From: Candidatus Planktophila sp.
Lineage (GTDB): Bacteria; Actinomycetota; Actinomycetes; Nanopelagicales; Nanopelagicaceae
DNA: 30,932 bases
Direction: 5' to 3'
NCBI GenBank assembly: GCA_030832135.1
Contig: JAURJS010000113.1
Coordinates: 1-30,932 of the forward strand
The notes beneath the pieces were generated by a model. It was not told the DNA's origin, ran no database searches, and saw only the letters and a list, made by a program, of their open reading frames with translations. Positions 4,148 to 15,821 of this stretch are shown here, one piece after another (the first letter of the stretch is position 1; every line of letters begins with the position of its first letter). The translations under genes and the position numbers were made by a program.

Positions 4148-5809
4148 TTAGTGACCTTCTGTCTTGATGTGTGGGTGGTGGAGATCAAATGCTGGACGCT
4201 CTGAACGGATACGTGGCATTGATGTGAAGTTGTGGCGTGGTGGTGGACAGCTTGTCGCCCACTCAAGGGATGAGCCATAACCCCATGGATCATCGCAATT
4301 AACCATTGGGTTCTTACGAGTGATCCAGACGTTGATAAAGAATGGAATCATCGAAAGGGCCAGAAGCGCGGAGCCGAATGTTGAAATCATATTCATTCCT
4401 GTAAAGCCATCTGATGCAAGGTAATCGGCATAACGGCGAGGGAAGCCCTTGATGCCGAGCCAGTGCTGGATGAGGAATGTTGTGTGGAAGCCGAAGAAGA
4501 GAGTCCAGAAGTGGATCTTTCCAAGGCGCTCATTGAGCATGCGACCGGTGAACTTAGGCCACCAGAAGTAGAAGCCTGCGAACATCGCAAAGACCACTGT
4601 TCCGAAGAGAACGTAGTGGAAGTGCGCTACAACGAAGTAGCTGGCAGAGACTGCAAAGTCGAGTGGTGGTGAGGCGAGGATGATTCCGGTGATGCCACCG
4701 AAGAGGAATGTCACGAGGAAGCCCATTACCCAGAGCATTGGTGTCTCAAATGAGACATTGCCTCGCCACATTGTTCCGATCCAGTTAAAGAACTTCACAC
4801 CAGTAGGAACACCGATAAGGAAGGTCATAAAGGAGAAGAACGGTAATAGCACCTGTCCAGTTGCGAACATGTGGTGCGCCCATACCGCAACTGAAAGTGC
4901 TGCGATTGCAATAGTTGCTGCAATCAAACCTTTATAACCAAAGATTGGCTTACGGCTAAAGACCGGCAAGATCTCAGTTGCAATACCGAAGAACGGTAAC
5001 GCGAGGATATAAACCTCGGGGTGGCCGAAGAACCAGAAGAGGTGCTGCCAGAGCATCGCACCACCGTTGGCCGGATCGAAGATGTGAGTTCCAAAGAGGC
5101 GGTCTGATTCAAGTCCCAAGAGCGCTGCCGCAAGTGGTGGGAAGGCAAGGAGAATCAAGATTGATGTCAGCAAGGTGTTCCAGCTAAAGATTGACATACG
5201 GAACATCGTCATACCTGGCGCACGCATGGTGAAGATTGTCGTGATGAAGTTAACGCCACCGAGGATTGTTCCAAGACCAGAGACTGTTAATCCGATAACC
5301 CAAAGGTCTCCACCGATACCTGGTGAATATGTTGAGTTAGCAAGTGGTGCATATGCAGTCCAACCAAAGGATGCCGCTCCACCTGGAGTGAGGAAGCCTG
5401 CAACGGTCATCAATGAACCGAAGAAGTAGAGCCAGAAAGAGAGCATGTTAAGACGTGGGAAGGCAACGTCTGCTGCGCCAATTTGCAGCGGCATGATGAC
5501 ATTTGCAAAACCAACAAAGAGTGAGGTTGAGAAGAGCAAGAGCATGATCGTTCCATGCATTGTGAAGATCTGGTTGTACTGCTCATTACTCATAAATTGC
5601 ATACCTGGGCGGGTGAGCTCTGCACGCAGGAAGAGTGCCAAGATTCCACCTACGAGGAACCATGCAAAAGATGTTGCGAGGTAGAGATAACCGATGCGCT
5701 TATGGTCTGTTGAGGTAATTGTCTTTACAAACTGAGTTCCCCAAGAGTCCTTGCGCTCAACACCCTTGCGAGGTGCAGTTGCAGCAGGAGCTTCAGCAAA
5801 TGTAGTCAT
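4148..5809 (-). CDS. ctaD: Cytochrome c oxidase subunit I (heme-copper oxidase, A1 type)
   Basis: 553 residues, about twelve helices. The full set of metal ligands is seen: H85 and H398 (heme a), H396 (heme a3), H263, H312 and H313 (CuB), with Y267 of HPEVY as the cross-linked tyrosine. D-channel residue D114, K-channel residue K339 and gating E265 are present, so this is a proton-pumping A1-type enzyme. It reduces oxygen to water with electrons arriving through CuA of CtaC. The ATG overlaps the ctaC stop by one base (TAATG). The hydrophilic N-terminus is somewhat longer than in proteobacteria, as is normal in Actinobacteria. Confidence 0.97.
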
Positions 5810-6573
5810 TATGCGCTCGCCTTCAATGTGTTGAGGTAATTCTGATACTGCTCAGGTGTCACAACCTTGACCTTAAAGATCATCTGGGTGTGATTACGTC
5901 CGCAGAGAATGTTGCATCGACCTGGGTATGTGCCGAGTTTATTTGCAGTGAATTGAAGATGGTTGGTGCGATCTGGAAGGTTCTGCATCTGAATCATAAA
6001 TGCTGGAATCCAGAAACCATGAACAACATCGTTTGATGTGATGGTGAAGCGAACGCTCTCTCCCTGAGGAAGGTAGAGCGTTGGTGGATTCTCTGGAGTT
6101 CCTGTGACAACTGCATCTTTACCCGCTTCTGGGTAGCCAAACTGCCATGACCACTGAATTCCTTCAACGGTAATTTCATGTTGAGCAGGAGTCTTTGGAG
6201 AGACAATTTCAGATTCTTTAATTGCGGTGAAGTAGAAGAGAACTGCAACGATAATGAAAGGAATAACTGTGTAGAGAATCTCAACTGGAATGTTGTACTG
6301 AGTCTGCTTTGGGAACTCGCCCTTCTTGGCATCGTTCTTACGATGGAAGATCGCGGGCCAGATAATCAAGATGAAGGTAAAGACTCCAACAACTGCAGCT
6401 GTGATCCATGCGCCCTGCCAGAGAGAGAGCGAAATATCGTTCACGCTTGTTACATTCTTGGGATAACCCATACCTGAAATATCTTCGGACTTGAGTGAGC
6501 ATCCGCTGAGGAAGGCGGTCGCAAGGAATGCTCCAAGGAGGCCGGCCAGGGTGCGCTTTTTAGGTGCAGACAT
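5809..6573 (-). CDS. ctaC: Cytochrome c oxidase subunit II (CuA subunit), lipoprotein
   Basis: 254 residues from the ATG at 6573, chosen because it begins a clean lipoprotein signal (KKR, hydrophobic core, lipobox LSGC with C25) and because a TATCCT box lies 7 bases upstream. Two helices (about 52-76 and 95-117) precede a cupredoxin domain. CuA ligands are visible as H185, C220, C224, H228 and M231 in [12 protein letters not shown]. The usual Glu between the cysteines (C-x-E-x-C) is Ile222 here; in well-studied oxidases that Glu gives a backbone carbonyl to CuA and a side chain to the Mg/Mn site. The protein accepts electrons from cytochrome c (here QcrC). It is the first gene of ctaC-ctaD-ctaF. 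Confidence 0.96.
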
Positions 6574-6580
6574 AGAGCTA

Positions 6581-6586
6581 AGGATA
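6581..6586 (-). promoter_or_regulatory. Probable -10 box of ctaC, leaderless
   Basis: TATCCT on the minus strand ends 7 bases before the ctaC ATG, with no Shine-Dalgarno sequence between. In Actinobacteria this spacing marks transcription starting at the start codon. No clear -35 box is seen. Confidence 0.55.
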
Positions 6587-6619
6587 GTGGCGCGAACGCA
6601 TAGGTGGCGCTGTAAGAGG

Positions 6620-6625
6620 TATCGT
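6620..6625 (+). promoter_or_regulatory. Probable -10 box of the cysteine desulfurase-like gene, leaderless
   Basis: TATCGT lies 7 bases before the GTG at 6633. This supports that GTG as the start and a leaderless transcript. It is 33 bases from the ctaC -10 box on the other strand, so the two divergent promoters share a 59-base gap. Confidence 0.5.
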
Positions 6626-6632
6626 TCCATGG

Positions 6633-7691
6633 GTGGCTCACCTCACAGATAACTTCACCTCCGAGACTGCGCTCTCCCCTGCCGTCCGAGAGGCGATCTC
6701 TGCCTCCTTTGAACAAGGGTGGGCCGACCCGAAGAAGCAGTCTCAAGCCTCTTCCAAAGCCGCCATCCTCCTCGATGGTGCTAAATCAGAGATTGCAGCC
6801 CACCTCCATACAACCCCGGACCACCTTGAGGTCATAGGTGAGCCCGCGCTCCTTCATTACATCGCCCTCCACGGATTTATCACATCAGCTTCAACTCTCT
6901 ACACCTCAACGGTTGATGTGGGCAAAATCAGAGCAGTCGCCCGCCCCCTCTCCGATGAGAGCAAGGTGATTGGAGTCGATGAAGAAGGCCTGCTCCTAAC
7001 CGCCGGTGTTAAATTTGAGAAGAACTCCATCCTCTCGCTTCAGGCAACCAATGGTGAGAGTGGTGCGACCCAAGATCTAGATTGCTACAGAGATATGGCA
7101 TACAAGGTCGTTGTGGATGGAACGCGCTCGCTACCCAACCGAGATCTCGCCACCGGCTTTTCGGCAACAACCTTCGATGCAACATCGTGGTCTGGTCCCC
7201 AAGGAATTGGCTTTATCAATATCAGCGATGCGAAGAGCTTCAAATATCCACTCCCTCATATCGCTCCGATTCGCGTCCCCGGCTCATACTCACTGCCGCT
7301 GCTGATTGGAAGTGCGATAGCGCTGGCTGAATTTAAGAATGAGATTGAGAATCTCATTTCGCTTCGAAAAAATCTAGTTGGCGCACTTAGCGCCATTGAA
7401 GGTCTCACAGTTTTGGCTCCCAATTCAGGAGCTGATTCACGTTACTTATCCATCATTGTTGAAGAAGTTTCGTCAGAAGAAGTTCTGCGTTCTTTATTGA
7501 AGGAGAATCTAGCTATCGATGCTGGCTCTGCCTGCTCTCCCGAAGATCTCACTCCGAGCCACGTCATTGCATCGATGGGCTTTCCAACAACTGGCCATCT
7601 TCGCTTTACTCTCCACCCACATCACACAGCAAGTGATATCGAGCGTGCTGCATCTACCTTGAAAACGGTGCTCACAAAATTACGCAGCTAG
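6633..7691 (+). CDS. Cysteine desulfurase-like protein lacking the PLP lysine
   Basis: 352 residues with the aminotransferase class V (NifS/IscS) fold. The GTG start is chosen from the family N-terminus (LSPAVREA) and a -10 box 7 bases upstream. Conserved parts include the PLP-ring Asp motif (VDGTRSLP), the GPxGIGF stretch and the substrate-cysteine loop GSACSPEDLTPSHV. In place of the SAHK motif, where Lys binds PLP, the sequence reads FDATSWSGPQGIG: F181-G191, with Thr184 and Ser185 where His and Lys are expected. The His that stacks on PLP (usually in TSxxEH) is also not apparent, and the DxxQ Gln is Arg. The reading frame is intact and full length, so this is not a simple pseudogene. Either it is a PLP-free paralogue or it has another role. 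Desulfurase activity is doubtful. Confidence 0.82.
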   Translation: MAHLTDNFTSETALSPAVREAISASFEQGWADPKKQSQASSKAAILLDGAKSEIAAHLHTTPDHLEVIGEPALLHYIALHGFITSASTLYTSTVDVGKIRAVARPLSDESKVIGVDEEGLLLTAGVKFEKNSILSLQATNGESGATQDLDCYRDMAYKVVVDGTRSLPNRDLATGFSATTFDATSWSGPQGIGFINISDAKSFKYPLPHIAPIRVPGSYSLPLLIGSAIALAEFKNEIENLISLRKNLVGALSAIEGLTVLAPNSGADSRYLSIIVEEVSSEEVLRSLLKENLAIDAGSACSPEDLTPSHVIASMGFPTTGHLRFTLHPHHTASDIERAASTLKTVLTKLRS

Positions 7692-8657
7692 ATGCGCAGC
7701 TACCTCATCTGCTGCAGCTTGGCCATAGGCATCTGAAAAGCGCGCAACAAACTCGCTCTTGGTGAAGCGATATTCCTGCGTTCCCATAGTTTCAATCACA
7801 TAGGTCGCAACCATTGAACCAAGCTGTGCACAGCGCTCATGGCTAAGTCCCCAGGAAAGACCGGCGACAAAACCAGAACGGAAAGAGTCTCCAACGCCGG
7901 TGGGATCGACCTTCGCCTTCTCCTTAGCGCAGGTCACCTTAATAAATTCACCATTAATACTCTCAACTCGAGCTCCCGCAGATCCTTGGGTGATCACGCG
8001 GTACTTCACCTTCTGCAAAATCTCTTGATCGCTCCAACCAGTCTTCTGTATCGCGAGTGCGAGCTCATACTCATTCATAAAGAGGTAGGTTGCGCCTTCA
8101 ATTAATTTACGAATCTGTTCACCTGACATACGAGCCATCTGCTGTGATGGATCTGCGGCCACTGCAATTCCATTTTCAAGGGCTACCTCAGTATGGCGAA
8201 GCATCGCCTCTGGATCATCGGGTGAAATTACCAAGAGGTCGAAGCGACCGGTCTTATCCATAATCGGCTTGAGTTCAATATTGCGCGCCTCAGACATTGC
8301 ACCTGGGAAGAATGAGGCGATCTGGTTGAGTTCGGTATCTGTCGTTACGGTGAAGTGCGCCGTGTACTGCTCTTGTGAGATTAATACATGTGATGTGTCG
8401 ACTCCATGGCGCGAAAGCCAAGCATCGTAATCTGCCCAATCCTTACCGACTGCGGCGATGAGGATGGGATTGAGTCCAAGGTTGGCCATACCGAATGCAA
8501 TATTTGCAGCGCATCCTCCGCGACGGACTTCAAGGCCATCGACTAAGAAGGAGAGTGAAACTTTCTCAAGAGATCCTGCAACAAGAGAATCGGTGAACTT
8601 TCCTGGAAAGGTCATTAAATGATCAAGACCAACTGAACCTGCAACGCCAATTCTCAT
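7680..8657 (-). CDS. adoK: PfkB-family kinase, adenosine kinase AdoK-like
   Basis: 325 residues, the same length class as mycobacterial AdoK (Rv2202c, 324), which it resembles along its whole length (DHLMTFPGKF, KVSLSFLVD, ASFFPGAMSEARNI, AADPSQQMARMSGE, as recalled). The N-terminal GG motif (RRGGCAAN, about 46-52) and the C-terminal anion hole with the catalytic base, DPTGVGDSF (D251-F259, base D257), are intact. AdoK phosphorylates adenosine to AMP with ATP; a sugar kinase role cannot be excluded from sequence. The gene lies 39 bases after erpA on the same strand, so co-transcription is likely. Its end overlaps the convergent cysteine desulfurase-like gene by 12 bases. Confidence 0.87.
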   Translation of the reverse strand: MRIGVAGSVGLDHLMTFPGKFTDSLVAGSLEKVSLSFLVDGLEVRRGGCAANIAFGMANLGLNPILIAAVGKDWADYDAWLSRHGVDTSHVLISQEQYTAHFTVTTDTELNQIASFFPGAMSEARNIELKPIMDKTGRFDLLVISPDDPEAMLRHTEVALENGIAVAADPSQQMARMSGEQIRKLIEGATYLFMNEYELALAIQKTGWSDQEILQKVKYRVITQGSAGARVESINGEFIKVTCAKEKAKVDPTGVGDSFRSGFVAGLSWGLSHERCAQLGSMVATYVIETMGTQEYRFTKSEFVARFSDAYGQAAADEVAAHLAA

Positions 8658-8696: not shown

Positions 8697-9056
8697 TTAG
8701 TTAAATGAATCGCCACAGGCACATGAACCCTGCGCTTGTGGGTTATCGATTGTGAAGCCCTGCTTCTCGATCGTATCTTCGAAATCAACTGTTGCACCCA
8801 AAAGGTAAGGATCAGACATCTTGTCGACAACGACCTTTACTGAACCAAATTCACGAACAACATCGCCCTCTTGATTGCGATCATCGAAAAAGAGCTGGTA
8901 GCGAAGACCAGAACAACCACCTGGCTGAACTGCAACACGGAGATAGAGGTCATCGCGACCTTCTTGGGCAAGCAGAGCTGCAACCTTGGCAGATGCTGCC
9001 TCTGTAAGAGTAATTCCGGTAGCGATGGTGATTGGCTGGCTTGTCTCTGTTGTCAT
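8697..9056 (-). CDS. erpA: A-type iron-sulfur carrier/insertion protein (HesB/IscA/ErpA)
   Basis: 119 residues from the ATG at 9056; the frame stays open further upstream, but this ATG gives the family length and is preceded by TATCCT at a 7-base spacing. The three cluster-binding cysteines are present: C48 in PGGCSG and C112 and C114 in SCACG near the C-terminus. A-type carriers hold Fe-S clusters and pass them to target enzymes. Two likely [4Fe-4S] clients, NadA next door and LipA further along, are in the window. The gene is divergent from nadA (54 bases) and heads an erpA-adoK transcript. Confidence 0.93.
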   Translation of the reverse strand: MTTETSQPITIATGITLTEAASAKVAALLAQEGRDDLYLRVAVQPGGCSGLRYQLFFDDRNQEGDVVREFGSVKVVVDKMSDPYLLGATVDFEDTIEKQGFTIDNPQAQGSCACGDSFN

Positions 9057-9063
9057 GTGCCGA

Positions 9064-9069
9064 AGGATA
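9064..9069 (-). promoter_or_regulatory. Probable -10 box of erpA, leaderless
   Basis: TATCCT on the minus strand, 7 bases before the erpA ATG. Box and spacing are identical to those of ctaC. No ribosome-binding sequence lies between the box and the start. Confidence 0.55.
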
Positions 9070-9110
9070 CCCGCGTCGGGTTGCCGTTGCGACTTCAAAC
9101 CCGCGAGAAT

Positions 9111-10265
9111 ATGGACATGTCATCGACCTCACTTCAGGATTTGCTCCTCCTCGGCCGAGGTTCAGACCTGGCATCAGAGCGCGGGGTCTCATGTACTGGC
9201 GAGCTACCTGATGCCAGTGATCCCGATCTTGTCGCCCGAGCCACGGCGGCAAAAGCTGCCCTTGGCTCAAGAGCGCTGATTCTGGGCCACCACTACCAAC
9301 GCGATGAGGTCATTGCATTTGCCGATATCACCGGCGACTCTTTCAAACTTGCCCAAGCTGCAGCAGCCCAATCAACTGCTGAATACATCATCTTCTGTGG
9401 TGTTCACTTCATGGCAGAGAGCGCAGATATTCTCACCGGCTCACATCAGAAAGTTATTCTTCCTGATCTAGCTGCTGGATGTTCTATGGCGGATATGGCA
9501 ACTGCATCTCAAGTGCAGCAATGTTGGAACGATCTTGAGAAGCTCGGATTTGCAAAGGTCACTGTGCCCGTGACGTATATGAATTCATCTGCTGCAATTA
9601 AAAGCTTTACCGGAGAACATGGCGGAACAATCTGCACATCTTCTAATGCAGAAAAAACTCTTCGTTGGGCATTTGAAAAGGCGGAGAAGGTGCTCTTCCT
9701 TCCCGATCAACATCTCGGTCGCAATACCGCAGTGATCGATCTTGGATTATCACTTGAGGATTGCGTCGTATGGAACCCATGGAAACCTCAGGGTGGTCTG
9801 ACTGAAGATGAGATTAGAAATGCCAAGGTGATCCTCTGGCGCGGTCACTGCTCAGTCCATGGGCGATTTACTGCTCAGTCAATCGCAGAATTTAAGGAGC
9901 GCATTCCAGAAGTTCAAGTAATTGTCCATCCAGAGTGCCAGCATGAAGTAGTCACTGCTGCAGATGTTGTTGGTAGTACTGAGAAGATTATTAAGACTGT
10001 CTCTGAATCAGCCCCTGGATCTCAATGGGCTGTTGGAACTGAACTCAATCTCGTCTCCCGCCTTGCGGCGCAGAACCCTGATAAGAAGGTCTACTTCCTC
10101 GATCGCACTGTCTGCTACTGCTCCACGATGAATCGCATCGATCTGCCGCACCTAGTCTGGGCTCTTGAATCACTGGTTGCTGGCAAGGTAGTGAATCAAA
10201 TCTCGGTAGATCCCGAGACGGCGCGCTATTCAAAGTTGGCGCTCGAGCAAATGCTCGCTCTATAG
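9111..10265 (+). CDS. nadA: Quinolinate synthase NadA
   Basis: 384 residues from the ATG at 9111. A second ATG at 9117 is equally possible; neither has a good ribosome site or a -10 box at leaderless spacing. NadA condenses iminoaspartate with dihydroxyacetone phosphate to give quinolinate for NAD synthesis, using a [4Fe-4S] cluster. Seen motifs are LGHHYQRDEV, FCGVHFMAE (C96), GHCSVHGRF (C247), VHPECQHE and CYCSTMN (C335 and C337); the three cluster ligands should be among these cysteines. The longer three-cysteine form fits the Bacillus/actinobacterial type. nadB and nadC do not follow. The downstream DUF3043 gene starts 8 bases after the stop. Confidence 0.95.
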   Translation: MDMSSTSLQDLLLLGRGSDLASERGVSCTGELPDASDPDLVARATAAKAALGSRALILGHHYQRDEVIAFADITGDSFKLAQAAAAQSTAEYIIFCGVHFMAESADILTGSHQKVILPDLAAGCSMADMATASQVQQCWNDLEKLGFAKVTVPVTYMNSSAAIKSFTGEHGGTICTSSNAEKTLRWAFEKAEKVLFLPDQHLGRNTAVIDLGLSLEDCVVWNPWKPQGGLTEDEIRNAKVILWRGHCSVHGRFTAQSIAEFKERIPEVQVIVHPECQHEVVTAADVVGSTEKIIKTVSESAPGSQWAVGTELNLVSRLAAQNPDKKVYFLDRTVCYCSTMNRIDLPHLVWALESLVAGKVVNQISVDPETARYSKLALEQMLAL

Positions 10266-11875: not shown

Positions 11876-11932
11876 TGGGGTGGGTTGGTGATTGCCAATG
11901 GCTGTCCCATATGGTTGCCTTCGCACACAACT

Positions 11933-11938
11933 TAATAT
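11933..11938 (+). promoter_or_regulatory. Candidate -10 box for the cobalamin-riboswitch transcript
   Basis: TAATAT would place transcription start near 11945, exactly where the closing stem of the aptamer begins (GATA at 11946). No convincing -35 box at normal spacing was found, so the call rests mainly on position. Confidence 0.4.
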
Positions 11939-11945
11939 CTCTATT

Positions 11946-12070
11946 GATACATCAGGGGAAGTTCGGTGCAATTCCGACGCTGACCCGCAACCGTAAGAGC
12001 GCCTGAGCGCTTAAGTCGGATTACCTGATCTATCTCTTAAGACAGACACCCGCCGAGGTTTGCGGGGCGT
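11946..12070 (+). ncRNA. Cobalamin (B12) riboswitch
   Basis: The conserved core is clear: GGGGAAGTTCGGTG, then AATTCCGACGC, the L5-type element CTGACCCGCAACCGTAAGAG, and AAGTCGGATTACCTGAT. The closing stem pairs GATA-c-ATCAGG (11946-11956) with CCTGAT-c-TATC (12024-12034). An inner hairpin AGCGC-CTGA-GCGCT follows the core. Downstream, CCCGC/GCGGG (12049-12066) forms a further hairpin whose GGTTTGCGGG can pair with CCCGCAACC (11984-11992), with one bulged base, as expected for a kissing interaction. The RNA precedes a secreted protein and an ECF transporter, which it should switch off when cobalamin is plentiful. Whether control is at transcription or translation is unclear; no obvious T-run terminator is seen. 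Confidence 0.93.
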
Positions 12071-12136
12071 AGTCGTAACGGCGCCTCGCCTTTGCTAGCT
12101 ACCCCTGTGAGACTCTTATCTAATTGGAGCTCCAGA

Positions 12137-12670
12137 ATGAAGAAAGTAACAATCACCGTTGCGCTCATTGCAACTCTATTCTCACAATCACTTATCCCAT
12201 CAGCACAGGCTGCATCAAAAGGCTGGCGATATTGGGGTTACTACCAATCTGCAGCAAATAGCAGTACTTGGAAAGCAGCCATGACAGGCCCAACAGTCGA
12301 TATTGCAGATGGTTCAGTCGAAGGTTGGATCTTTACCTTTAGCAACGACGACACTCCATCGACTCCCCCTTCAGTAAAGCCATCATTTGCAACTATCTGC
12401 GCAAAGACCAAGGCTCAGAAGGGCCTCAAGCGCGTCGGTCTCGTGATCGACTTCGGCTCACAGGTGTACGCACCAAAGGGTGAGAAGGTAAAGAAGACGA
12501 TTGTTCGCTGCGTACTCACTGCAAAGGAGTCACAAGGCCTCGACGTTCTCGCACAAGAAATCACCGTTCGCCAGGCAGATTCAGGTCTGATCTGTGGATT
12601 CAATGGTTACCCAGCACGTGAGTGCGGCGTAGAGATTTCAACGCCTCCATCACTTCAGAAGAAGAAGTAA
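12137..12670 (+). CDS. Secreted SCO2322-family protein of a B12-regulated ECF cassette
   Basis: 177 residues from the ATG at 12137, preceded by GGAG 7 bases upstream within the palindrome TGGAGCTCCA (12125-12134). The frame is open 15 codons further, but this ATG starts a signal peptide (KK, hydrophobic core, likely cleavage after AQA at residue 25). The mature part starts RYWGYYQ and has ADGSVEGW, four cysteines (C88, C125, C153, C163), a VIDFG strand and a Lys-rich end. I recognise the pattern of the SCO2322 family, found beside ECF transporters in Actinobacteria. The function is unknown; it could bind corrinoid or help the S subunit outside the membrane, which is inferred from the riboswitch and neighbours. 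No C-terminal anchor is seen. Confidence 0.82.
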   Translation: MKKVTITVALIATLFSQSLIPSAQAASKGWRYWGYYQSAANSSTWKAAMTGPTVDIADGSVEGWIFTFSNDDTPSTPPSVKPSFATICAKTKAQKGLKRVGLVIDFGSQVYAPKGEKVKKTIVRCVLTAKESQGLDVLAQEITVRQADSGLICGFNGYPARECGVEISTPPSLQKKK

Positions 12671-12679
12671 TTCACCACA

Positions 12680-13420
12680 ATGAAACCGTTCCATCCACTT
12701 ACCTTCTGGGCGCTCTTTAGCTGCCTTGCGGTAGGCGTTATCGCTGCAGATAGTGCAACTCTTGCGCTCTTGGCAGTGGGTGGAGCGGCTCTCATTGTGA
12801 AGTTCTATAAACAAGATGGCCCTTGGAGCGCTAGTTTCCATTGGTCCCTCATTGCTGGTCTTGTTCTCATCTCAATTCGTGCACTCACCGGAATTCTGAT
12901 TGGAGTTCCACGCATCGGTGAAGTGCTCTTCACTCTTCCACGGATCAATCTTCCATCGTGGCTACCAGGTATTCGCATCGGTGGCCCCGTCACATGGGAG
13001 CGACTTTCCTCTTCACTCCATGAAGGTTTGATCATTGCAACTGTGATTGCCCTCTTTGGTGCTGCAAACTCCGTTACCAGCCCACATAAATTGCTCCGAG
13101 TTCTTCCCTCACGCATTTATCAAGTCGGAGTTACTCTCACCATCGCCACATCTGTATTTCCACAATTGATTTCAAGCATCGCCAGAATCCGCCAAGCACA
13201 ATTTTTGCGAAGTGGTAGCAAGCCACGAATCTCTAGGATTGCGATTCCACTTCTTGAAGAGAGTCTTGCGCGTGCTGTTCACCTCGCCGAGGCGATGGAG
13301 GCGAGAGGCTTTGGTCAATCAAAGAGCCAGAGCCGCTATCGCCCTATTAATTACTCACTCCGTGATCTTGCCTGGATCGCATCTGGGGCCCTCGTTGCAG
13401 TAGGGATGGTGGCGTTGTGA
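12680..13420 (+). CDS. ECF transporter transmembrane (T) component, CbiQ/EcfT-like
   Basis: 246 residues with several hydrophobic segments (about 7-40, 54-77, 113-133, 143-165 and 228-246). The coupling region holds the two motifs expected in EcfT: RIRQAQFLRSG (about residues 170-180) and AEAMEARGFG (about 205-214), the latter a classic Ala-Arg-Gly box that contacts the ATPase. It joins the ATPase to the substrate-binding S component. The start lies 9 bases after the SCO2322-like stop and the end overlaps the ATPase start in GTGA, so the cassette is one operon. Confidence 0.9.
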   Translation: MKPFHPLTFWALFSCLAVGVIAADSATLALLAVGGAALIVKFYKQDGPWSASFHWSLIAGLVLISIRALTGILIGVPRIGEVLFTLPRINLPSWLPGIRIGGPVTWERLSSSLHEGLIIATVIALFGAANSVTSPHKLLRVLPSRIYQVGVTLTIATSVFPQLISSIARIRQAQFLRSGSKPRISRIAIPLLEESLARAVHLAEAMEARGFGQSKSQSRYRPINYSLRDLAWIASGALVAVGMVAL

Positions 13421-15024
13421 TTACCTTCTCTCGCGTCTCACTGATTTATCCCCACTCCACCACAACAGTCATTGAGGATCTCTCCTTTGAAATTAGCGAA
13501 GGAGAGATGGTTCTGGTAATGGGCCATACCGGCTCTGGTAAATCATCTCTATTGCGATTGATCAACGGTCTTGTCCCCCATCACACAGGTGGAATTCTTG
13601 GTGGTGAGATTATCGTCGATGGTAAATCGACGAGAACGACTAAGCCTGGAGAATTAGCAGGCATCGTGGGAATAGTTGGACAGAATCCACTAGCAACATT
13701 TGTGACCGATATTGTTGAAGATGAACTCGCCTTTGGAATGGAGTCACTCAACTTTCCGCCTGATGTGATGCGAAAGCGCATCGAGGAGGCTCTCGATCAG
13801 GTGGGACTTGTTCCGCTTCGTCAACGAAGCATTGCAACGCTGAGCGGTGGTGAACAGCAGCGACTAGCGATTGCATCAGCTCTTGTTATGCACCCGAAAG
13901 TTCTTGTTCTCGATGAACCGACCAGCGCTCTCGATCCGATTGCCTCAGAAGAAATTCTGGCAATCCTGCATCGACTGGTGCATGACTTGAGCGTGACCGT
14001 TGTTCTCGCCGAGCATCGTCTAGAGCGTGTCATCGGCTATGTCGATCGAATCCTTCTCATTGAAGGAGATGGCGCATCATCTATAGGCGAACCCTCGGAA
14101 ATTCTGAAGAAGACAGATCTCGTTCCGCCGATTGTCCGACTCTCACGCGCACTATCGCTCGAGGAGATCGGAACCAGCACGAGAGAGGTTCGTAAGCTCA
14201 CCGAAGATATTAGGCGCGATCTCAACGATATTCCCCGACCTGTATTTAAAGCAGGCGAGCTCTCGCTCTCCTTGACCGATATCGTCGCAAAGTACGGCGA
14301 GAAGGAAGCTCTCTCATCAGTAACTCTCGAATTACATAGCGGTGAAATCACCGCGCTCATGGGGCGCAATGGAGCTGGAAAAAGCTCGCTCATCAAATGC
14401 GCTGTGGGGCTCCTCTCTCCCGCTTCTGGCTCCATCGTTCTCGGCGAAAGACAGCTTGATGAGATTGCTCAGAAGGAGCGCTCTCGACTGATCGGTTATA
14501 TTCCGCAAGAGCCAGGTGACCTCCTCTATCTCTCATCGGTAGCTGAAGAATGTGCTCGAGCTGATCGCGATAATGCGATCGCACATGGCGCAACACTTGC
14601 ATCGCTTCATCAAATGCTTCCCACAATCTCTCCTCAATCGCATCCACGTGATCTCTCTGAAGGTGAACGACTCTCGTTAGTCTTGGCAATCGTTTTGGCT
14701 GGCTCCCCGCAGATTCTTATCCTCGATGAACCTACTCGCGGCTTGGATTACGAGGCAAAGAATCGATTGATGGCACTTCTTCATCGCCGTGCTCGCATTG
14801 ATGGAACATCGGTATTGATGGCAACGCATGATGTTGAGATTGTCGCCGAGGTTGCAGACCGCACAATCTTCCTTGCAGAAGGCGAGAAAGTTGCAGATGG
14901 CCCCACTCTTGATGTGCTCTTGGCATCTCCGGCATTTGCACCTCAAGTAGCTAAGGTGATGTCTCCACGTCCATGGCTGACCGTTGGGGATGTGCTCCGC
15001 TCACAAGGCAGCTTAGAAGAATGA
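13417..15024 (+). CDS. ECF transporter double ATP-binding (A/A') protein
   Basis: 535 residues: two fused ABC ATPase domains. Domain 1 has Walker A GHTGSGKSS (G36-S44), signature LSGGEQQR (142-149) and Walker B VLVLDEPTSALD (D166, E167). Domain 2 has Walker A GRNGAGKSS (316-324), Walker B ILILDEPTRGLD (D437, E438) and a changed signature, LSEGE (413-417), in place of LSGGE. H-loop histidines appear in LAEHR and MATHD. It powers the T/S module by ATP hydrolysis at the inner membrane face. The GTG start overlaps the T-gene stop (GTGA) and the stop overlaps the S-gene start (ATGA). Confidence 0.94.
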   Translation: MITFSRVSLIYPHSTTTVIEDLSFEISEGEMVLVMGHTGSGKSSLLRLINGLVPHHTGGILGGEIIVDGKSTRTTKPGELAGIVGIVGQNPLATFVTDIVEDELAFGMESLNFPPDVMRKRIEEALDQVGLVPLRQRSIATLSGGEQQRLAIASALVMHPKVLVLDEPTSALDPIASEEILAILHRLVHDLSVTVVLAEHRLERVIGYVDRILLIEGDGASSIGEPSEILKKTDLVPPIVRLSRALSLEEIGTSTREVRKLTEDIRRDLNDIPRPVFKAGELSLSLTDIVAKYGEKEALSSVTLELHSGEITALMGRNGAGKSSLIKCAVGLLSPASGSIVLGERQLDEIAQKERSRLIGYIPQEPGDLLYLSSVAEECARADRDNAIAHGATLASLHQMLPTISPQSHPRDLSEGERLSLVLAIVLAGSPQILILDEPTRGLDYEAKNRLMALLHRRARIDGTSVLMATHDVEIVAEVADRTIFLAEGEKVADGPTLDVLLASPAFAPQVAKVMSPRPWLTVGDVLRSQGSLEE

Positions 15025-15821
15025 AAACCGCTCAAATCCTTAGGCGATTATCGATAGCGCTCTTAATCCCTTCAACTCTCATTGGATTCACCTGGCCCTT
15101 CTTTGCCACCTCGCAGATGCTGGCAAATCAAGCAGAGTGGTTCTTCCTGCTCTCCACGACGATCTCAATCTTCCTTATTGTCTCGCTCGTTGCAACTGAT
15201 GATCTCGGTTCAAAGAATGTTGCCTTCTTAGGAATTCTCTCTGCTCTCGTTGCGGCTCTGCGCCCCCTTGGTATTGGCGCGATTGGAATTGAACCAATGT
15301 GGTTTGCTCTGATTCTTGCAGCCAGAGTTATGGGTCCAACTTTTGGATTTCTCCTCGGCGCACTCAGCATGTCTCTATCAGCTCTGCTCACCGGCGGAAT
15401 TGGTCCCTGGCTTGGTTACCAAGTATTTGCCGCTGCCATCATCGGATTCGGCGTAGGAGTTATTCCTAAGAGAGCGCAAGGAAAGTGGGAGCTTGCTCTG
15501 CTGGCTTTCTATGGCGCAATCGCAGCTGAAGTATTTGGCATCTTGATGGATCTCCAATTTTGGCCGTGGTCGCTCGGCTCTGGAACTGAACTTTCATACC
15601 AAGTAGGAGCTCCGATTGCGGAGAATCTCTCTCGCTTCTTCTCATATCACTTCATCTCAGCGTTGGCATGGGATATTCCGCGTGCAATTATGACGGTCTC
15701 TCTCATTCTTGTTGCTGGCCGCCCAGTCCTCAACGCGCTACGTAGAGCGCGCCATAAAGCAGCCTTCGTTACTCATATCGAGTTTGAAGAGTTAGCGAAC
15801 GTGAGACTCAACCATCGGTAG
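15021..15821 (+). CDS. ECF transporter substrate-binding (S) component, probably for cobalamin or a precursor
   Basis: 266 residues from the ATG at 15021, which overlaps the ATPase stop as ATGA; the frame is open 16 codons further but that would run deep into the ATPase gene. It is highly hydrophobic with about six helices. Features include LRPLGIGAIGIEPMWFALILAARVMGP-type packing (about 73-100) and a Gly-rich GALSMSLSALLTGGIGPWLGY region, as in S components. The substrate is inferred from the cobalamin riboswitch upstream; the sequence alone does not fix it. The last 30 bases overlap the convergent gcvT end. Confidence 0.85.
   Translation: MKTAQILRRLSIALLIPSTLIGFTWPFFATSQMLANQAEWFFLLSTTISIFLIVSLVATDDLGSKNVAFLGILSALVAALRPLGIGAIGIEPMWFALILAARVMGPTFGFLLGALSMSLSALLTGGIGPWLGYQVFAAAIIGFGVGVIPKRAQGKWELALLAFYGAIAAEVFGILMDLQFWPWSLGSGTELSYQVGAPIAENLSRFFSYHFISALAWDIPRAIMTVSLILVAGRPVLNALRRARHKAAFVTHIEFEELANVRLNHR

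Follow-up and report, generated by a model that had tools for sequence, protein, structure and literature searches.

A Desulfurase Homolog without the PLP-Binding Lysine Accompanies Quinolinate Synthase in Nanopelagicaceae and Other Actinomycetes

What is left for a cysteine desulfurase to do once it has lost the lysine that holds its cofactor? The question is raised by a gene, here named DESX, in a stretch of 30,932 nucleotides (the window) from Candidatus Planktophila sp. (Nanopelagicaceae; GenBank assembly GCA_030832135.1, contig JAURJS010000113.1), which belongs to a 60%-complete metagenome-assembled genome (MAG). DESX has the fold of the class V (NifS/IscS type) cysteine desulfurases, in which a lysine forms the aldimine with pyridoxal 5'-phosphate (PLP). 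We think it reasonably probable that DESX is a NadS-like, NadA-associated desulfurase that has turned into a PLP-free, cysteine-based sulfur or cluster helper for an insert-bearing (type II) quinolinate synthase, NadA. This reading grows out of a dismantled PLP site, a retained fold and cysteine loop, purifying selection, and co-occurrence with NadA and NadC.

The original prediction described a full-length desulfurase homolog without the PLP lysine, and the window bears this out. The reading frame is free of internal stops, and the predicted model keeps the family fold intact (predicted local distance difference test [pLDDT], 92). Within the former lysine motif, FDATSWSGPQGIG, the positions of the His-Lys pair are taken by Thr184-Ser185, because the motif aligns without gaps, anchored by Trp186 and a Gly-Pro pair, to that of lysine-keeping orthologs at the same locus, which is mostly SAHKWGGPAGVG. 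Misalignment was ruled out by this gap-free match to SAHKWGGP, Trp and Gly-Pro being common to both. Serine thus stands where the SxHK motif of class V desulfurases has its aldimine-forming lysine. The PLP-stacking His and the DxxQ Gln, also predicted to be missing, are indeed replaced by Val96 and Arg165, and a further change had been overlooked: S70-G71-T72 in the phosphate loop of the lysine-keepers have become E-P-A. The ring Asp (Asp162) and the loop GSACSPEDL with its nucleophilic Cys301 are retained, as had been claimed. DESX therefore combines a replaced lysine with a retained cysteine loop, as do the pseudo-desulfurases of the Archaeoglobus fulgidus IscS kind. For the roles of these cofactor-site residues, we assume those of Escherichia coli IscS.

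The loss is old and widespread. When the window is aligned with 120 relatives, those listed of 713 found, position 185 is Ser in 107 of the 121 sequences, Ala in 10, Thr in 4, and never Lys; six other residues (Cys301, Asn140, Glu142, Asp162, His310, and Arg324) are each present in 121 of 121. Chance or error is excluded because position 185 is Ser, Ala, or Thr throughout these sequences and because loci from closed, single-contig genomes agree on the absence of lysine (e.g., L040-L042, L051, L059, and L061); sequencing error or recent decay, an objection foreseen in the original prediction, is ruled out by the lack of the lysine in all 120 listed relatives and in the closed genomes. Across Nanopelagicaceae, lysine is missing from 43 of 43 sequences (40 loci, the window, and 2 further loci) in 13 of the 17 genera.

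Orthologs fetched from 66 loci of outgroup actinomycete families (36 and a second batch of 30) bring the alignment to 109 rows. Synteny makes these genes true orthologs, yet 33 of the 66 retain the lysine, usually in SAHKWGGP, and 33 have lost it (D in 13, S in 7, G in 4, M and A in 3 each, and Q, T, and I in 1 each at position 185); since the second batch, of 30 genomes, was chosen from families with low profile scores, this division is not a census. Cys301 is present in all 109 sequences, 33 Lys-keeping and 76 Lys-less. In these alignments, most other PLP contacts decay along with the lysine. His96, Ser182, and Gln165 occur in 32 (the remaining one being a gapped fragment), 33, and 27 of the 33 Lys-keepers, in 10, 8, and 6 of the 33 Lys-less outgroup sequences, and in 0, 3, and 1 of the 43 Nanopelagicaceae sequences; for S70, G71, and T72, the counts are 31, 32, and 30, then 25, 10, and 6, then 2, 2, and 0. 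The lysine loss itself recurs within the DESX family. Parsimony on the 109-row tree gives five lysine changes, of which only two are forced by well-supported branches, and if only losses are permitted, the drawn tree yields 14 groups without the lysine, many of them at unsupported forks.

Could DESX be a decaying relict without function? Such a gene would be expected to look as DESX does in its faster divergence than its neighbors and its loss in one clade, but the frames are open in the compared loci, and selection on DESX is purifying. Its ratio of nonsynonymous to synonymous substitution rates (dN/dS; Nei-Gojobori) is about 0.1, lying mostly between 0.07 and 0.22 in pairs of close loci, with one outlier of 0.54 at a dS of 0.05 (40 closest pairs listed, a few without a value). 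With the Cys loop kept in 109 of 109 sequences and DESX present in 129 of 130 NadA-bearing genomes, functionless decay seems to us extremely unlikely. The conserved pseudoenzyme of the original prediction holds up on these data, being Lys-less throughout the Nanopelagicaceae examined.

We regard as just as improbable the idea that DESX is still a desulfurase in which another lysine forms the aldimine. Lys34, Lys35, and Lys98 might be put forward, each being present in 121 of 121 sequences of the window's clade, but Lys34 and Lys98 are found in only 11 and 10 of the 43 Nanopelagicaceae sequences, Lys35 (39 of 43) is Arg in 31 of 33 Lys-keepers, and the remaining cofactor contacts are lost. A lysine one residue earlier, at position 184 (the former His), does occur, in 5 of the 109 sequences (L042, L043, L049, L197, and L200). 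A PLP, pyridoxamine 5'-phosphate, or other-cofactor enzyme of new chemistry in a remodeled pocket also strikes us as quite unlikely. Retention of Asp162 and Asn140 and strong conservation of the clade motifs GEP, SW, and PHIAPIRxPGSYS in the 121 sequences would fit it, but Lys, His, Gln, Ser, and the phosphate-loop Gly and Thr are jointly lost, and other genera of Nanopelagicaceae show the motifs more weakly. Nothing that we found favors the different chemistry that the original prediction had allowed for.

What DESX serves is suggested by the company it keeps. DESX is genetically linked to NadA and co-occurs with it, both of which characterize NadS-type partners of NadA. The family comparison covers 160 genomes, namely the window's own MAG and 159 that are at least 85% complete. 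Both DESX and NadA occur in 129 of them and neither in 30; NadA without DESX is seen in 1 (G217, partial, at the edge of a contig) and DESX without NadA in 0 (Fisher P of 1e-31, which is not a phylogenetic test). Eleven DESX-less genomes, at least 92% complete, retain ctaC, the kinase gene, erpA, and the outer genes of the locus and have also lost nadA, so that nadA and DESX are both gone although the kinase gene and erpA lie between them. NadC was found in 10 of 10 near-complete DESX-bearing genomes searched and in 0 of 11 DESX-lacking ones; its operon, nadB-nadC, is unlinked, lying about 420 kb away in the closed genome G254. These loci also bear on the proposal that DESX serves cytochrome oxidase or another neighbor (ctaCD, the kinase, or erpA), the NadA link being secondary. 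Those genes adjoin DESX in most loci examined, but the 11 loci without DESX and nadA retain ctaC, the kinase gene, and erpA, and the unlinked NadC follows DESX, which leaves this proposal very unlikely.

The clade formed by L163-L173, in the window's genus, lacks nadA, nadC, and DESX and retains the remainder of the locus; it probably needs external NAD precursors.

The association extends to the class. Two types of NadA occur in Actinomycetia, about 30% identical to each other and differing, across 24 sequences, in their cysteines and by an insert of 24 residues; the insert of type II comprises residues 268-291 of the 439-amino-acid frame that begins at 8946, and there is an extra Cys. A profile search of 393 genomes, in which the NadA types were set by a score cut of 1e-104 and then checked in 24 sequences by identity to the window NadA (28-36% versus 53-71%), found DESX in 0 of 83 genomes with type I NadA, in 233 of 285 with type II (10 ambiguous and 42 without), and in 2 of 25 without NadA, or 235 carriers in total. 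The 10 ambiguous genomes are those with intermediate DESX scores; 5 others in the intermediate range were included among the carriers on the strength of synteny at their fetched loci. Both NadA-less carriers sit on short contigs (G339, 6,901 bases; G427, 12,660 bases) that stop within about 3 kb beyond DESX, before the usual position of nadA. G617, a single 4.0-Mb contig, lacks both genes; its genus otherwise carries both, one congener being ambiguous for DESX. In five type II loci without a clear DESX (4 of the 42 and the ambiguous G531), a desulfurase with SxHK or AxHK lies downstream on the nadA strand, and none was found in the fetched stretches of 15 loci with the other NadA type (one just 3.2 kb long). 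From this contrast, the insert type of NadA seems to be accompanied by a partner from the desulfurase family, DESX being one kind.

Several known systems resemble DESX in part. Its best Foldseek match is A. fulgidus IscS (4eb5; template modeling [TM] score, 0.87), which, with Methanosarcina IscS1, has the desulfurase fold, a replaced lysine, and a retained Cys loop (A. fulgidus structures 4eb5 and 4hvk; D199K mutant, 4r5f). In the A. fulgidus protein, the lysine is replaced by Asp, desulfurase activity is reported to be absent, and the Cys is reported to be a ligand of a [2Fe-2S] cluster on IscU (PMC7585200). Its motif is changed mainly at the lysine (SSNDIYGPKG), whereas DESX is without most PLP contacts; the archaeal protein pairs with IscU, and the bacterial one tracks NadA. 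The original prediction had called loss of the lysine with retention of the Cys loop unusual, which holds only in tempered form given this precedent and the recurrent loss within the DESX family. In Corynebacterium glutamicum, the NifS-type protein NadS (ndnR-nadA-nadC-nadS) is associated with NadA and with the [4Fe-4S] cluster of that enzyme (PMC11995493); as described there, it is an active-type desulfurase within the nad operon, unlike DESX, which lies elsewhere and has lost the lysine. The five NadS-like genes beside nadA noted above likewise retain the lysine, as do the 33 orthologs that share the neighborhood of DESX and have an intact PLP motif. SufE has a fold unrelated to that of the desulfurases. 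Plant SufE3, a SufE-NadA fusion, is reported to be a sulfur acceptor, not itself a desulfurase, that is required for the NadA cluster (PMC5890173); it is fused to NadA there, and DESX is a separately encoded former desulfurase.

Beyond naming DESX a NadA partner without PLP chemistry, we infer the mechanism as follows. An active desulfurase of the SufS or IscS type would place a persulfide on Cys301, and DESX would pass the sulfur on to the NadA cluster, with TusA possibly acting as carrier where tusA follows DESX. Alternatively, Cys301 may bind a cluster transiently, the role proposed for the cysteine of A. fulgidus IscS. From the co-loss and the published analogs, we infer that DESX may be needed for the [4Fe-4S] cluster of NadA. 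More tentatively, and with somewhat less than even confidence, we suggest that a NadA-dedicated desulfurase of Actinomycetia repeatedly dropped PLP catalysis and kept an invariant Cys, giving a class of PLP-free persulfide relays or cluster scaffolds with the desulfurase fold, specific to insert-bearing NadA, in which the Cys loop rather than the active site is the conserved function.

Intact desulfurases are encoded elsewhere. The check for a second, intact desulfurase turned up an IscS-type gene with SGHK in the MAG (L001, contig C46) and SufS scoring above its NCBIfam threshold in each of 19 near-complete relatives; the same 19 have a second PF00266 match (1e-60 to 1e-67), taken as IscS type without individual checks. 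A near-identical partial IscS-type copy lies beside mnmA on another contig of the MAG (L002, contig C100), truncated by the contig end, and the two are probably strain variants in the bin. Lys-less subunits are known from serine palmitoyltransferase, and on that model DESX might be a silent subunit that pairs with and modulates an intact IscS-type or SufS desulfurase. The retained fold and the intact desulfurases in the MAG and in 19 of 19 relatives would accommodate this. However, SufS and the second class V match persist in G136, G237, and G255, genomes without DESX or NadA, so the desulfurase partner does not need DESX; DESX tracks NadA instead, and an invariant Cys loop would be unneeded for a purely structural role. 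We judge the silent subunit unlikely. Nothing shows SufS to be the partner of DESX, as the original prediction suggested it might be; what the data indicate instead is NadA, named there only as a neighbor, and with it the de novo route to NAD.

TusA was rejected as an obligatory partner, since locus counts show it to be common but dispensable. Among Lys-keepers, 31 of 33 have a TusA frame 3' of DESX; the figures are 23 of 33 for Lys-less outgroup loci and 19 of 42 for Nanopelagicaceae. The two are fused in L123 and L133 at least. No TusA frame was found at the window's locus, nor any PF01206 match in its MAG.

A number of observations weigh against DESX as a helper of NadA. Neighboring genes can be jointly missing in incomplete genomes. 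The 11 DESX-less loci in the window's genus form one clade (support, 99) and hence one event, and the DESX-NadA co-occurrence largely reflects one clade. Class-wide, 42 type II genomes are without DESX (4 of them examined, plus 1 of the 10 ambiguous), and counts by NadA type are approximate because G444, at 33% identity, fell on the wrong side of the score cut, making at least one misplacement. TusA is often absent, and neither NadC nor SufS above its cut-off was found in the window's 60%-complete MAG. The adjoining kinase is under several times stronger constraint than DESX (kinase dN/dS of 0.008 to 0.043, same method and loci). Finally, Asp162 (106 of 109) and Asn140 (108 of 109), which we would ordinarily read as cofactor contacts, are retained, and S70 persists in most outgroup losses (25 of 33).

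The window has the gene order ctaD-ctaC, DESX, PfkB-family kinase, ErpA-like gene, and nadA (Table 1). The original prediction's usual locus was confirmed in most ortholog loci; those of the outgroup mostly run ctaD-ctaC, DESX, often a TusA gene, kinase, and erpA, with nadA where the stretch reaches. The ErpA-like product scores 113.7 bits with the ErpA model, slightly below its 117 cut-off. By alignment, the true nadA start is probably near 9111, and that of ctaC probably lies within its longest frame.

Table 1. Positions of DESX, its diagnostic residues, and neighboring genes in the window
Feature	Position	Strand	Remark
DESX (name coined here), Lys-less class V desulfurase homolog	6633..7691	+	352 amino acids, GTG start
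GEPA, residues 69-72, replacing phosphate loop (S70-G71-T72 of Lys-keepers)	6837..6848	+	
Asn140-Gly-Glu142 of NxExG motif, retained	7050..7058	+	
Asp162 (ring Asp, retained) to Arg165 (Gln lost)	7116..7127	+	
Former PLP-lysine motif FDATSWSGPQGIG, residues 181-193	7173..7211	+	Ser185 codon 7185-7187
GSACSPEDL, residues 298-306	7524..7550	+	Cys301 codon 7533-7535
PfkB-family kinase (adoK in the original prediction), between DESX and nadA	7680..8657	-	
ErpA-like A-type Fe-S carrier	8697..9098	-	TIGR00049 above cut-off
nadA, quinolinate synthase, insert-bearing type II	8871..10265	+	
ctaC and ctaD (cytochrome oxidase), divergent neighbors of DESX	4148..6630	-	longest frames

Some genomes have two DESX copies at ctaC-like loci (G081, at L052 and L073; G285, on contigs C11 and C47) and may be mixed bins. 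Farther along the window, an adenosylcobalamin (AdoCbl) riboswitch (11930-12077, plus strand) lies upstream of a gene run (12092-15821) with signatures of an energy-coupling factor (ECF)-type transporter (ECF S component, CbiQ-like protein, and double ATP-binding cassette [ABC] ATPase), probably for B12-regulated uptake.

A Lys-less desulfurase that retains its Cys is already known in archaea. A search of titles and abstracts in the open-licence PubMed Central literature, with most subscription literature outside its scope, returned no Lys-less, NadA-linked actinobacterial desulfurase; what did not turn up there, and seems new here, is a recurrent bacterial form that has lost most of its PLP site and is linked to NadA as its partner. 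If this reading is true, extraction of sulfur from cysteine and transfer of that sulfur are separable, and a lineage can give up extraction while transfer persists. Genes labeled "cysteine desulfurase" in their sources would acquire a likely role, in NadA maturation, along with a warning against that label. The 33 Lys-keeping and 76 Lys-less sequences form a natural series on what NadA requires from its partner, and one freshwater clade has dropped nadA, nadC, and DESX jointly, which suggests that it depends on outside NAD precursors.
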